34,092 nucleotides of DNA from an uncultured Saprospiraceae bacterium. Lineage in GTDB: Bacteria; Bacteroidota; Bacteroidia; Chitinophagales; Saprospiraceae. Positions 2,205 through 26,536 of the stretch are shown in pieces; the stretch's first letter is position 1; every line of letters begins with the position of its first letter. Where the stretch lies: NCBI GenBank assembly GCA_937929885.1, contig CALFUQ010000065.1:1-34092 (forward strand). The letters run 5' to 3'. The translations under genes were made by a program, and so were the position numbers. The notes beneath the pieces are model-generated. The model worked only from the letters and a program-made list of their open reading frames with translations, was not told where the DNA came from and ran no database searches.

Positions 2205-2648
2205 TTACAAAATTACGGCTTCTTCCAAGGTATAAAGTAAACCATTTGAATTTTGTTCATTTATTCTTAGGACTCCCTTGAGCCTTATTTTGTTATCTGA
2301 GTACTTTACTTTTTTGTCATTTGACATGAATACTTGCATAGCTGTCTCTGGTCCCGCCGCTCCACAAAAGAAACACATATTAGCAGGAAATAGCGAGAGC
2401 ATAAAGTGGCTCTGGCTTACTTTGCCAGTAAGTGGGATGATATATCCATCTATCTCTATCTCTTGTCCTTGATAGGACTTAGCCATGAATCCTACAGTGA
2501 TCTTATCTATTGTCATACCAAGTGATTCGTCGTAGGTCGACTCTTTCTCCACTGTACCTAAGGTTTGCCACATAGGCGAACCTTGTGCTAAGCAATTGGT
2601 ACTAATTCCAATGAAAAGAAACAGAATGATTAATCTCATCAAGTACAT
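2205..2648 (-). CDS. DUF3299-like exported protein with CFFC motif (copy 1)
   Basis: Signal peptide; IDGYIIPLTGKVSQSHFMLSLFPANMCFFCGAAGPETAMQV; same architecture as the neighbouring ORF. Confidence 0.7.
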   Translation of the reverse strand: MYLMRLIILFLFIGISTNCLAQGSPMWQTLGTVEKESTYDESLGMTIDKITVGFMAKSYQGQEIEIDGYIIPLTGKVSQSHFMLSLFPANMCFFCGAAGPETAMQVFMSNDKKVKYSDNKIRLKGVLRINEQNSNGLLYTLEEAVIL

Positions 2649-7468: not shown

Positions 7469-7514
7469 CACGCACATTTAATTTCAATTGAATAAGTTTT
7501 TCAAATATTTCTTA

Positions 7515-8876
7515 ATGGCCATAAAAGGTGAAGTTGAATCCTTCACCGAAGGCAGTATTAATAGTGCGTTATTTTTACTAGCGATACCTATGATTCTAGA
7601 GATGATGATGGAAGCCACTTTTGCACTTGCAGATGCCTACTTCATTTCGAGGTTGGGTAGTGATGATGCTCTGGCTACTATTGGGCTTACAGAAACCTTC
7701 ATGTTCATAGTCATGTCAGTTGCTCTAGGGATTAGTAGCGCTGCGACTGCTATGGTCTCTAGACGGATAGGGGAAAACAATGTAGATGAAGCCACCTTTG
7801 CAGGAGTACAGTCTATTTTTTTAGCAATCTTCACTTCTTTTGCTCTTGGTCTTGTAGGGTTTATATATGCCCCAGACTTGTTGCGATTAATGGGAGGAAG
7901 CGAAAGCCTTATCACAGAAGGCACCTCCTATTGCAGGATTATGCTCAGCTTTAATATAGTGTTGGTATTGCTATTTGTAATCAATGCCGTATTTAGAGGT
8001 GCTGGAAATGCATCTATTGCAATGCAAACCTTAATACTAGCTAACGGGATAAACATAATTCTAGATCCTTGTCTCATTTTTGGTCTTGGGCCATTTCCTG
8101 AACTTGGTTTAAAAGGCGCTGCTATCGCAACTTGTATTGGTAGAGGAATCGGAGTATTATACCAGTTATACTATTTGATAAATGGGAAATCATTAATCAA
8201 AGTAAGTGTCAGACACATCACTATCGTTAAGGACATGCTATTGAGACAAATCAAAGTAGCCATCGGTGGGGCAGGTCAATATCTACTAACAACGATAAGT
8301 TGGATCTTAGTGATTAGGATTATAGCGGTGTTTGGTAGTGACGCATTAGCTGGTTATACGGTGGCGATGAGAGTGATTATGTTTACCATTCTTCCATCAT
8401 GGGGTTTATCCATGGCTGCTTCAACTTTAGTAGGTCAAAACTTAGGCGCTGGTAAAGCCGATCGAGCAGAGCAGTCTGCATGGAAGGCAGCTTACTATAA
8501 TATGCTGTTCTTAGCATCAGTTTCTGTAGTTGCATTTTTCGTAGCTCCCCCAGTGATTAGTATATTCAGTGATAACCCAGATGTAATATTGAATGGAGTA
8601 CTTGCATTAAGAATCATTTGTGCTGGTTATATTTTTTATGCTTACGAAATGGTACTGGGTCAATCATTTAATGGGGCTGGTGATACCTACACGCCGACAT
8701 TACTTAACTTCATAGCATTTGTACTTATACAAGTACCACTTGCTTATGTACTAGCGATTAGTGCTGGGCTCGGGCCGATGGGAGTTTATATTAGTATAGC
8801 ACTCAGTAGCGCTATTCTTGCAATCATGGCCATTGTTGTGTTTAGAAAGGGAAAGTGGAAGCATATAGACATTTAG
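7515..8876 (+). CDS. MATE family efflux transporter (ATG start at 7515; the ORF track uses TTG at 7488)
   Basis: Twelve hydrophobic segments, MATE N-half pattern (IPMILEMMMEATFALADAYFISRLG), FRGAGNA and FNGAGDTYTPT repeats. Confidence 0.92.
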   Translation: MAIKGEVESFTEGSINSALFLLAIPMILEMMMEATFALADAYFISRLGSDDALATIGLTETFMFIVMSVALGISSAATAMVSRRIGENNVDEATFAGVQSIFLAIFTSFALGLVGFIYAPDLLRLMGGSESLITEGTSYCRIMLSFNIVLVLLFVINAVFRGAGNASIAMQTLILANGINIILDPCLIFGLGPFPELGLKGAAIATCIGRGIGVLYQLYYLINGKSLIKVSVRHITIVKDMLLRQIKVAIGGAGQYLLTTISWILVIRIIAVFGSDALAGYTVAMRVIMFTILPSWGLSMAASTLVGQNLGAGKADRAEQSAWKAAYYNMLFLASVSVVAFFVAPPVISIFSDNPDVILNGVLALRIICAGYIFYAYEMVLGQSFNGAGDTYTPTLLNFIAFVLIQVPLAYVLAISAGLGPMGVYISIALSSAILAIMAIVVFRKGKWKHIDI

Positions 8877-9230: not shown

Positions 9231-12200
9231 ATGGCTAAGTATAGAGAATTTAAGGGATTAGATCTACCAGCAATAGATAAAGAAATCCTCGCATTCTGGG
9301 AGGAGCATCAGACTTTTCAGAAGAGTATAGAAGAGCGTCCTGCCGATAATACTTTCGTCTTTTACGAAGGGCCGCCTTCTGCGAATGGAAAGCCAGGTAT
9401 ACATCATGTCATGGCAAGGACTGTCAAAGATCTTTTCTGTAGGTATCATACTATGAAAGGTCAGCGAGTAGACAGAAAAGGTGGATGGGATACCCACGGC
9501 CTACCTGTCGAGCTAAAAGTAGAATCAGAGTTAGGAATCACTAAAGAAGATATAGGAAAAAGTATAACCGTAGAAGAGTACAATCAAAAGTGCAAAGAGA
9601 CTGTCATGCGCTTTAAGGATATGTGGGATGACATCACTGTCAAGATGGGCTACTGGGTAGATCTAGATAATCCATATATCACTTTTAAAAATGAATACAT
9701 AGAATCTGTATGGTGGTTGTTAAAGCAATTGTATGACAAAGATTTAATTTATAAAGGATATACAGTACAACCATATTCCCCAGCAGCGGGAACAGGATTA
9801 AGCACACACGAACTTAACATGCCAGGCGCATATCAAGACGTGAAAGACACTTCAGCAGTAGCACAATTTAAAGTAGTCCAGAACGAAAAGTCAGATTTCC
9901 TCTTTGAAGGAAAAGGGGAAGGAGATGTCTACTTTATAGCATGGACGACTACTCCTTGGACGCTACCATCAAATGTAGGATTAGCAGTAGGTAAAAAAAT
10001 AGAGTACGTAAGAGTCAGAACTTTTAACCCTTACACTAAAATTCCTGTCAATGTAATTTTAGCAAAAGACTTAGTCTCTAAGTGGTTTAAACCTGAAAAT
10101 GCAGATTTAAGTTTTGAAGAATTTAAACCGGAGGATAAAAATATACCTTTTGAGATAACAGGGACTTATAAAGGCAACGAGCTAGAGATGATAAGTTATG
10201 AGCAACTTCTACCTTATGTACAGCCTGACAATGGTGATGCATTCAAAGTAGTACTCGGCAATTTCGTTTCTACAGAAGATGGAACAGGGATTGTTCATAT
10301 TGCTCCTTCTTTTGGTGCAGATGATATGTTTGTCGGAAAGGAGAATGGTTTGGGTTCACTTACGCTTGTAGATAAACAAGGAAAATTTGTGGACGAGGTA
10401 ACTGACTTTGCTGGTAGATATGTAAAGGATTATAAGGACGAACCGGATTATAAAAATGTAGATATAGACATCAGCATTAAACTTAAGGAAGAGAACAAAG
10501 CCTTTAACGTGCAGAAGTATCAGCACAATTATCCGCATTGCTGGAGAACTGACAAACCTATCCTTTACTATCCCCTTGATAGTTGGTTTGTTAAGAACTC
10601 TTCTCAACGAGAGCATATGTCTAAACTCAATAAGACGATCAACTGGAAACCATCTCACACAGGAGAGAAGCGATTTGGTAATTGGTTAGAGAATATGCAA
10701 GATTGGAATTTATCAAGATCCCGCTACTGGGGTATCCCGCTTCCGATCTGGAGAACTGAAGATGGCGAGCAAGCCAAGTGTATCGGCTCAATGGAAGAGT
10801 TAGACCAAGAAATTTCTGCAGCAAATGCTGCTTTAGGGTTAGAACAGAAAATGCCTAAGGATTTGCATAGACCATACATAGATGGTGTCACCTTGGTCTC
10901 AGAAGACGGTAAAGCAATGACAAGAGAGTTAGACTTGATTGATGTCTGGTTTGATTCTGGCGCAATGCCATTTGCTCAGCTTCACTATCCATTTGAAAAT
11001 AAAGAAATGGTAGACTCTGGATCTTTTTATCCTGCGGATTTTATTTGTGAAGGAGTGGATCAAACTCGTGGGTGGTTCTACACTTTACACAGTATCTCAT
11101 CTATGGTCAAGGACAGTGTAGCCTTTAAAAACGTAGTGTCCACAGGCCTTGTACTAGATAAGAATGGAGTCAAAATGTCTAAACGATTAGGCAATGTGAT
11201 TGACCCATTTGAGACAATTGATAATCATGGAGCTGATGCACCAAGATGGTACATGATGTCTAACTCGCAACCATGGGACAATCTTAAGTTTGATCTAGCA
11301 GGTGTAGAAGAGGTAAAAAGAAAATTCTTCGGCACACTTTATAACACCTATTCTTTCTTTGCCCTTTACGCAAATATCGATGGGTTCGCTTATGAAGAAG
11401 ACACTATCCCATTAGCAGATAGAACAGAAATAGATCGATGGGTAATCTCTCTACTTAATACGCTAGTAAAAGAAGTGGATGCCGAGTATGCTAATTACGA
11501 ACCTACTAATGTCTGCAGGAAGATCATGTCTTTTGTAGATGATCATTTGAGTAATTGGTATGTAAGACTTTGCAGAAGAAGATTTTGGAAAGGAGAATAC
11601 ACAGCAGATAAAATAGCTGCTTATCAGACTTTATATGATTGCCTATTGACTATCTCTAAGTTGATGGCTTCTATAGCACCTTTCTTTTCTGACTGGTTAT
11701 ATCAAAATCTTAATAATGCTTCTAGCAAAGAAGCAGAGAAAAGTGTACATCTTACACTCATCCCTACCCCAGACCAAAGTGCAATCGATAAAGCATTAGA
11801 AGAAAGGATGGATTACGCTCAGCGCATTTCATCTCTTGTACTATCACTTAGAAAGAAGGAAAGCTTAAGGGTTCGCCAACCTTTGCAAAAAATAATGCTG
11901 CCAATCTTAGATAACAAATTCCAAGATCAAGTAGAAGCAGTGAAAGAACTAATCCTCTCAGAAGTAAATATCAAAGAGATAGAATACATCACCGACACTG
12001 CTGGCGTAATCAAGAAGAAAGTAAAACCAAACTTCAAGACACTAGGACGAAAGTTGGGTAAGCAAATGAAGGATGGAGCAAATATAATATCTGGGCTTGA
12101 TCAAGATGCAATTGCTGCCATCGAAAAATCAAATAGTTACAAGCTCGAAGTAAATGGAGAAACATTTAATCTATCTCTTGAGGATTTTGAGATAGTATCA

Positions 12201-24448: not shown

Positions 24449-25375
24449 TTATCCTTCTAACTTAAATCTAACTGGTAAGGTGTAAAGTACCTTTACATTT
24501 CTACCTCTCTGCTTTCCAGGAGTCCACTTCTGCGGTAGATTGTTCATGTCTTTTACCACTTTTAGAGCAGCAGCTCCACAACCAGCACCGATATCTCTTA
24601 CAAGATTTGCTTCGGTAACAGATCCGTTTTTATCTACTACGAACTGTATTACACATGACCCCTCCACACCATTTTCTCTGGCGATTGCAGGATAGTTTAG
24701 ATTTTTATAGATGTACTGAAGCATTTTCTTTTTAGCACATTCCTCTTTAGCCTTGTTATCACCTGCTTCATTTTCACAACCAGGGAATCTTGGCATCTGC
24801 TCCACTACTTTGAATATCTCTTCTACTTCTGGCTCTGGTGGTGGTGGTGGTGGAGGCGGTGGTGGCGGTGCTTCTTCTTCTACCGCTACAGGTGCGTCTT
24901 CTACGACTGTCTCTTCCTCTACATCTTGATCTACGAACTCAGGCTCTTCTTCTTCTATAATTTCTTCCTCTGGCACTTCCTCTATCACTGGTGGAGGTGG
25001 TGGAGGCGGTGGAGGAGGTGGCTCTGCAGTTCTTGGAGGCTCAATCTCGATTTCCTCATCAAGCTCCAATGCATCATCTGGTATAAATATGTCATCCTCA
25101 TAAGTCGTCCAACTAAAACCGAGAAGCACTAACGCAAGCGCAGCTGCTAAACCAAATCTTAGAAAAGAACCACTCATACCGAATGCATTTACATCAGGAT
25201 ACTTGTTACGAGCTTTAAGAACAGATCCCCATTCCTTGTCTCGATACTTTTCTGTGAGATCACTACTCCCACTACTCTTAAATTGATTTCTCAAAAAGAG
25301 AATAATGCCTATCACAAGTAATACTAGCACGAGTGCTAGGATTGCTGTCATCTGCCCATTAAATTCTATATCCAT
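24449..25375 (-). CDS. TonB-family energy transducer, two-TM form, copy A (ATG at 25375)
   Basis: TM1, TM2 (LALVLLGFSWTTYED), two poly-Pro tracts, TonB C-terminal domain NYPAIARENGVEGSCVIQFVVDKNGSVTEANLVR. Confidence 0.9.
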   Translation of the reverse strand: MDIEFNGQMTAILALVLVLLVIGIILFLRNQFKSSGSSDLTEKYRDKEWGSVLKARNKYPDVNAFGMSGSFLRFGLAAALALVLLGFSWTTYEDDIFIPDDALELDEEIEIEPPRTAEPPPPPPPPPPPVIEEVPEEEIIEEEEPEFVDQDVEEETVVEDAPVAVEEEAPPPPPPPPPPPEPEVEEIFKVVEQMPRFPGCENEAGDNKAKEECAKKKMLQYIYKNLNYPAIARENGVEGSCVIQFVVDKNGSVTEANLVRDIGAGCGAAALKVVKDMNNLPQKWTPGKQRGRNVKVLYTLPVRFKLEG

Positions 25376-25393
25376 ATTCAAATAATTTTAAAT

Positions 25394-25567: not shown

Positions 25568-26476
25568 CTATTTCAAGAGTTTAAATTTGATTGGTAGTGT
25601 ATACATCACTTTTACATTTCTGCCTCTTTGCTTGCCTGGTGTCCACCTTTGTGGAAGCTCATTCATATCACTGATAACTTTCGCTGCTGCTTCATCACAT
25701 CCTGCACCTACTTTTCTAACCACATTTATATCTTTTACTTTTCCTTCTTTGTCTATTACAAATTGTAAGACTACTGTACCCTCAATCCCATTACTCTGTG
25801 CCATCTGCGGGTAGTCAAGTTTACTGTAGATATACTCCAGCATCTTCTTATCGGCACATGCTCTTTTTTCTTTCTTTGTGCCTGAGATATCCTCACAGCC
25901 TGGAAACCTAGGCATACTATCTGGAATAAAAACTATTTCGTCAATTGGTTCTTCGATAACTGGGGCTGGAATTGGAATTGGTGCAACATCCTTTTCTTCA
26001 GCAATAGGTCCAGGTTCTTCTATTACCTCATCGTCTTCTATATCCTGATCTACAAAGTCTGGTATATCTTCTTCTATGACTTCTTCATCTGGTATCGGCT
26101 CGATTACTGGTGGAGGTGGAGGAGGCGGTGGTGGCGGTGTAAAAGGTAGTGTCCTTGGAATTACCAACAACTCAGTATCATCAATATCAGGAATCTCAAA
26201 ATAACTCACCTCATCATAAGTGGTCCAACTAAAACTTAGTAACACTACTGCCAGAGAACACATAACTCCGATTTTAAAATTAAACCCTATGTTCTTTAGG
26301 ATATCTACGCCTCCATACTTGTTTCTGCTTGCAAGCGAATTGCCTTCTTCTGTAGTATCTAGATTTTCTTTTCGTAAAAGGAAAAGTGCTCTCACAGAGA
26401 TTATAAATGCAATGATACAAATGGAGAGTAAACATATCGAGATCAATACATTTGTCCCACTAAGCTCGATGTCCAT
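25568..26476 (-). CDS. TonB-family energy transducer, two-TM form, copy B (start aligned to MDIELSG, ATG at 26476)
   Basis: Paralog of copy A: VVLLSFSWTTYDE TM2, poly-Pro tract, MPRFPGCED...YPQMAQSNGIEGTVVLQFVIDKEGKVKDINVVRK. Confidence 0.9.
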   Translation of the reverse strand: MDIELSGTNVLISICLLSICIIAFIISVRALFLLRKENLDTTEEGNSLASRNKYGGVDILKNIGFNFKIGVMCSLAVVLLSFSWTTYDEVSYFEIPDIDDTELLVIPRTLPFTPPPPPPPPPPVIEPIPDEEVIEEDIPDFVDQDIEDDEVIEEPGPIAEEKDVAPIPIPAPVIEEPIDEIVFIPDSMPRFPGCEDISGTKKEKRACADKKMLEYIYSKLDYPQMAQSNGIEGTVVLQFVIDKEGKVKDINVVRKVGAGCDEAAAKVISDMNELPQRWTPGKQRGRNVKVMYTLPIKFKLLK

Positions 26477-26536
26477 ACTAAGTTTTGTTTGATTACTACT
26501 ACTTAGATGTGTGGACAAGTTTTTTTGGTGTGTGCC

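Follow-up and report, generated by a model that had tools for sequence, protein, structure and literature searches.

We analysed a 34,092-nucleotide stretch of DNA from an uncultured Saprospiraceae bacterium (contig CALFUQ010000065.1 of assembly GCA_937929885.1), hereafter the window. It carries an intact ileS gene for an isoleucyl-tRNA synthetase of type 2 (IleRS2), in which the HIGH signature of class I enzymes is replaced by Gly-Ile-His-His (Table 1). The ORF translation has no internal stop. The protein scored 995.6 bits against the TIGR00392 ileS profile (cut-off 621.4) and contains the Pfam domains tRNA-synt_1 (class I catalytic core), Anticodon_1 (anticodon-binding) and a C-terminal DUF5915.

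Table 1 Features of the window, with coordinates counted from its first nucleotide
Feature	Position	Strand	Basis or remark
ileS, intact housekeeping IleRS2, 1,100 aa	9231-12533	+	TIGR00392, Pfam and PDB matches
GIHH, non-canonical class I signature at the HIGH position, residues 56-59	9396-9407	+	Codons and alignment
MWD codons around Trp132, the counterpart of Trp130 in P. megaterium IleRS2	9621-9629	+	phmmer alignments
WTTTPWTLPSN, threonine-rich editing-site motif, residues 238-248	9942-9974	+	Conserved in PDB alignments
HYPFE, IleRS2/eukaryote-like marker, residues 585-589	10983-10997	+	Marker defined in PMC4861432
KMSKR, second class I signature, Arg replacing the last Ser, residues 648-652	11172-11186	+	Sequence
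MATE transporter	7488-8876	Same as ileS	~350 bp from ileS
TonB-type proteins, adjacent pair	24449-25381 and 25568-26518	-	Tandem duplication
Small proteins, adjacent pair	1661-2185 and 2205-2648	-	Signal-peptide-like starts

The neighbours of ileS that we checked encode a DUF1015 protein, the MATE transporter, a DUF819 membrane protein, CrcB and a glycosyltransferase-4 family enzyme, and no sign of a resistance or antibiotic-producing cluster was seen among them. The MATE transporter family includes drug exporters. Comparison of the entire window with Rfam gave no T-box or other known regulatory RNA. Elsewhere in it, the two TonB-type proteins contain long proline runs and are 49% identical to each other, while the two small proteins share 43% identity over 121 amino acids and an NMCFFCG(G/A)AGPET motif, and neither protein matched a Pfam family.

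The signature codons read GGTATACATCAT (GGT ATA CAT CAT) and are set in GPPSANGKP-GIHH-VMARTVK. This agrees with a previous, sequence-only reading of the window, which had reported the same codons in the context PPSANG-KP-GIHH-VMAR and had described the motif as HIGH with its first and third positions exchanged. In phmmer alignments, GIHH falls without gaps under HVGH of both Priestia megaterium IleRS2 (entries including 8c8u) and the Thermus thermophilus IleRS 1ile, and under GVHH of the engineered P. megaterium mutant 8c8w, which bears out the exchange. A failure of GIHH to align with HIGH, named by that reading as evidence against itself, was thus examined against solved structures, and a location of GIHH elsewhere than at the HIGH position is ruled out. 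Its description of canonical IleRS2 as TGLP-HYGH held in part only: HYGH was found only in the actinobacterial Tsukamurella enzyme, whereas other canonical IleRS2 read ANGxP-H(V/I/T)GH. With Gly at the first position and His at the third and fourth, the window motif has the composition of the G/AXHH signature (G or A at 1, His at 3 and 4).

The features used to tell the two types, IleRS1 and IleRS2, apart are those given in PMC4861432. The IleRS2 marker HYPFE is present in the window protein, and the IleRS1 mark Tyr59 (GPPYANG) is absent, Ser occupying the corresponding position in GPPSANG. NKIL, a further IleRS1 mark, was sought in the protein and not found, nor was a C-terminal four-Cys zinc cluster, no Cys following residue 861; controls from E. 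coli and Bacillus showed both GPPYANG and NKIL. A single SSL lies at residue 867, on the C-terminal side of KMSKR; judged by chain position only, this would differ from the place of the IleRS1 mark 572-SSL. The best PDB matches were structures of P. megaterium IleRS2 (795-808 bits), headed by 8c8w, and no IleRS1 structure exceeded 336 bits. IleRS1 was also set apart, with a support of 100, in a maximum-likelihood tree of 54 sequences, 45 of them from Bacteroidota. By motifs, score and phylogeny, the window enzyme is an IleRS2. An equivalent of Trp130, the residue replaced in the W130Q mutant of P. megaterium IleRS2 (8c9d), is present too. Both WTTTPWTLPSN and the second editing motif, GTGIVHIAPSFGADD, are intact, which suggests, on established knowledge of IleRS, that the editing domain is intact and could function. 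An editing-competent housekeeping enzyme is therefore the natural reading.

One ileS above the cut-off was found in the host genome, an assembly of 4.13 Mb in 421 contigs with a completeness of 89.5%. Neither the assembly nor 31 genomes of the order yielded a second ileS or a resistance paralogue, and 30 relatives of the same family or order have one IleRS2 each, except for one (G009) with only weak matches. IleRS1-like scores were absent from the 31 order genomes, where other matches reached at most ~110 bits compared with ~330 expected of IleRS1. Given the 89.5% completeness, a second ileS could be missing from the assembly, though the relatives argue against this. We also considered that GIHH might lie off the HIGH position with catalysis taken over by another segment, or that the gene might be a degenerate or resistance-only paralogue. 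No point in favour of this was found. It is contradicted by the gap-free alignment to solved IleRS2, by the strict conservation of the motif, and by a gene that is the sole ileS found and encodes a full-length protein in which the editing and anticodon domains are present. The proposal is barely credible.

A scan of viral contigs revealed no virus-borne relatives of the gene, and matches in phage collections were unverified scaffolds or bacterial-type genes. Separately, a full-length Bacteroidota-type ileS is annotated in the Riemerella anatipestifer record NZ_CP072187.1 (95915-99307) and in three similar plasmid-collection records of ~102-105 kb; these may be genuine plasmid-borne copies, or else contigs of chromosomal origin that were mislabelled. 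Another side observation concerns the order-level relative G145, in which two matches to the GXHH pattern lie on different contigs (C1:44012-44050, L120, and C10:603-641), possibly because ileS is present twice or because of an artefact of assembly.

The swapped signature extends well beyond the window. GIHH was present in 109 of 109 relatives covering the site (the window's own sequence counted); 80 of these loci had record titles, and the organisms named in them were Bacteroidota. Across 297 near-complete genomes of the phylum, a DNA pattern for GPP[ST]ANGxP[GA]xHH matched 193. We opened 28 of the 104 non-matching genomes, and all that covered the site read G[I/V/M/L]HH in the context GPPTVNG; a second pattern, GPPTVNGxPGxHH, then matched 104 genomes. 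Together the two patterns account for all 297 genomes (193 + 104), and wherever their rows were compared, the two sets of hits complemented each other. The canonical pattern ANGxxHxGH, which detects ileS of E. coli, Bacillus, Paenibacillus and two faecal scaffolds and misses HTGH and HYGH variants, matched none of the 297. The swap holds even in phylum sequences of just 42-49% identity, and record titles place its bearers in gut, rumen, marine, freshwater and groundwater habitats. With the swap conserved in all phylum homologues examined, chance is no concern for GIHH. The second signature is more variable: among 107 Bacteroidota relatives it reads KMSKR in 93, KMSKS in 9 and KMSKH in 5. KMSKR prevails in the closer relatives and KMSKS in most divergent members of the phylum, and the five KMSKH sequences are Prevotella-like or from Bacteroidales.

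The sequence-only reading had proposed phylogenetic placement as a check, and the tree puts the window enzyme among IleRS2, inside a single group of all 45 Bacteroidota sequences (SH-aLRT 99), every one of them GXHH. There it adjoins Saprospiraceae MAGs (72-73% identity). GXHH enzymes of the Clostridial Acetoanaerobium and the actinobacterial Nonomuraea fall outside the group; the placement of the actinobacterial outgroup is unreliable and the deeper order unsafe because the actinobacterial branches are long. On the sequences compared, GXHH is an ancestral trait fixed across the phylum and not peculiar to the window organism.

This distribution bears directly on the suggestion, made in the sequence-only reading, that the organism or its lineage may have faced pseudomonic-acid-like antibiotics. 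With GXHH in 297 of 297 genomes and the canonical form in none, that suggestion is not supported: a motif fixed phylum-wide, down to 42-49% identity, is uninformative on whether this organism or its recent forebears met pseudomonic acids. The corresponding explanation, that GIHH is a lineage-specific adaptation of the organism or its close relatives to antibiotics of this type, can draw on the hyper-resistance that GXHH confers on the IleRS2 enzymes tested in PMC10485003. Set against the phylum-wide fixation and the one all-GXHH group in the tree, it is highly improbable, and we reject it on the distribution.

The published enzymology provides a basis for predicting the behaviour of the window enzyme. 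Brkic et al. 2023 (PMC10485003) reported G/AXHH in 86 of 379 sampled IleRSs and a shifted tip of the HIGH helix in IleRS2, by which the third His can reach the catalytic position with the adenine undisturbed; this His also clashes with mupirocin. In that study, the natural IleRS2 of Deinococcus radiodurans (DrIleRS2, ALHH) had a mupirocin Ki of 6.6 mM, which fell 823-fold with the canonical motif, and GVHH raised the Ki of two canonical IleRS2 enzymes ~200-fold or more. For Streptomyces griseus IleRS2 (SgIleRS2), the Ki is 10 mM (PMC4861432). Motif swaps thus shift the Ki ~200-800-fold, and DrIleRS2 and SgIleRS2 are the two natural G/AXHH enzymes measured to combine activity with millimolar Ki (PMC10485003, PMC4861432), in line with the earlier statement that a GXHH subset of IleRS2 stays active and extremely resistant. 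The kinetics in these papers are for enzymes of Deinococcus, Streptomyces, Thermus and Priestia, and Bacteroidota are not represented. In the window enzyme, a shifted helix tip would let the third-position His stand in catalytically for the first His of HIGH and leave the ATP adenine in place, and the same bulky His would clash with mupirocin and bring the Ki into the millimolar range. Because IleRS2 type and motif both match the published enzymes, we strongly infer hyper-resistance of the window enzyme, a target-level prediction well supported by analogy.

For the organism itself, natural resistance had also been predicted. At the level of the target, this remains the best prediction from published GXHH enzymology, even though the exposure history attached to it is not supported. 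Resistance could plausibly extend to whole cells. The isolation of a Bacteroides strain in the presence of mupirocin at 50 mg/L (PMC9022498) fits target resistance, with the outer membrane as a confounder, and no mupirocin MIC figures for Bacteroidota were found in the literature searched.

Together, these results very probably mean that the gene encodes the one housekeeping IleRS2 of a Saprospiraceae-like member of Bacteroidota, that the whole phylum inherited GXHH from an ancestor, and that the takeover by His and the clash with mupirocin proceed as in published IleRS2. The motif, its alignment, the IleRS2 type, the lack of a second ileS in the assembly and the phylum-wide fixation are observations; an active and hyper-resistant enzyme would be expected from the characterised homologues. 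Compatible with this explanation, the ancestral swap, once fixed, may now be kept by drift, or by having become epistatically entrenched in the active site of IleRS2, and not by mupirocin, with resistance as a by-product. We give this an even chance. Constant exposure of hundreds of genomes from varied habitats to one Pseudomonas product is unlikely, and DrIleRS2 with the canonical motif keeps its kcat within ~2-fold (PMC10485003, Table 1). However, selection could come from other natural IleRS inhibitors, and a natural reversion of the motif in Deinococcus-Thermus (PMC10485003) shows that reversal is possible. In its broadest form, the inherited-trait explanation would have the swap fixed once, in or before the ancestor of Bacteroidota (GTDB), and never reverted, giving target-level mupirocin hyper-resistance throughout the phylum independently of the outer membrane and of recent exposure; we regard this as somewhat favoured.

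If the swap was fixed once and not reverted, Bacteroidota would amount to a natural experiment, on a very large scale, with a changed class I signature that is often accompanied by KMSKR. Target-level resistance across the phylum, if it holds, would help explain the recovery of Bacteroidota on mupirocin media and would offer many natural variants for testing how class I synthetases tolerate a rearranged HIGH. The distribution also guards against mistaking an ordinary ancestral trait for an adaptation to antibiotics: where automated annotation lists a Bacteroidota ileS under mupirocin (for example, PMC10835994), the gene is the native one. G/AXHH IleRS2 and its millimolar Ki were already published in 2023 (PMC10485003). 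The main texts of PMC10485003 and PMC4861432, figures and source data apart, do not name Bacteroidota, and the explicit phylum-wide fixation may therefore be a small addition.

Among known systems, MupA has an IleRS2 fold like that of the window enzyme (~39.5% identity), but it carries a canonical-type HTGH and is acquired and plasmid-borne. Membership in MupA or MupB was rejected, with 784.4 and 767 bits against curated cut-offs of 1900. The best-scoring solved homologue, P. megaterium IleRS2 (8c8u, 8c8v), matches at ~800 bits over nearly the full length and shares the Trp130 equivalent; its wild type is HVGH, with GVHH in the engineered mutant only, and it coexists with an IleRS1, whereas no IleRS1 was found in the host genome of the window. 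The closest known systems are the G/AXHH IleRS2 enzymes of PMC10485003 (D. radiodurans ALHH, S. griseus). From their characterised members the window enzyme differs as a Bacteroidota sequence with GIHH and KMSKR, whose millimolar Ki is a prediction only, and with them it shares the IleRS2 type, the swapped residues 1 and 3, the housekeeping role and the range of Ki predicted for it.
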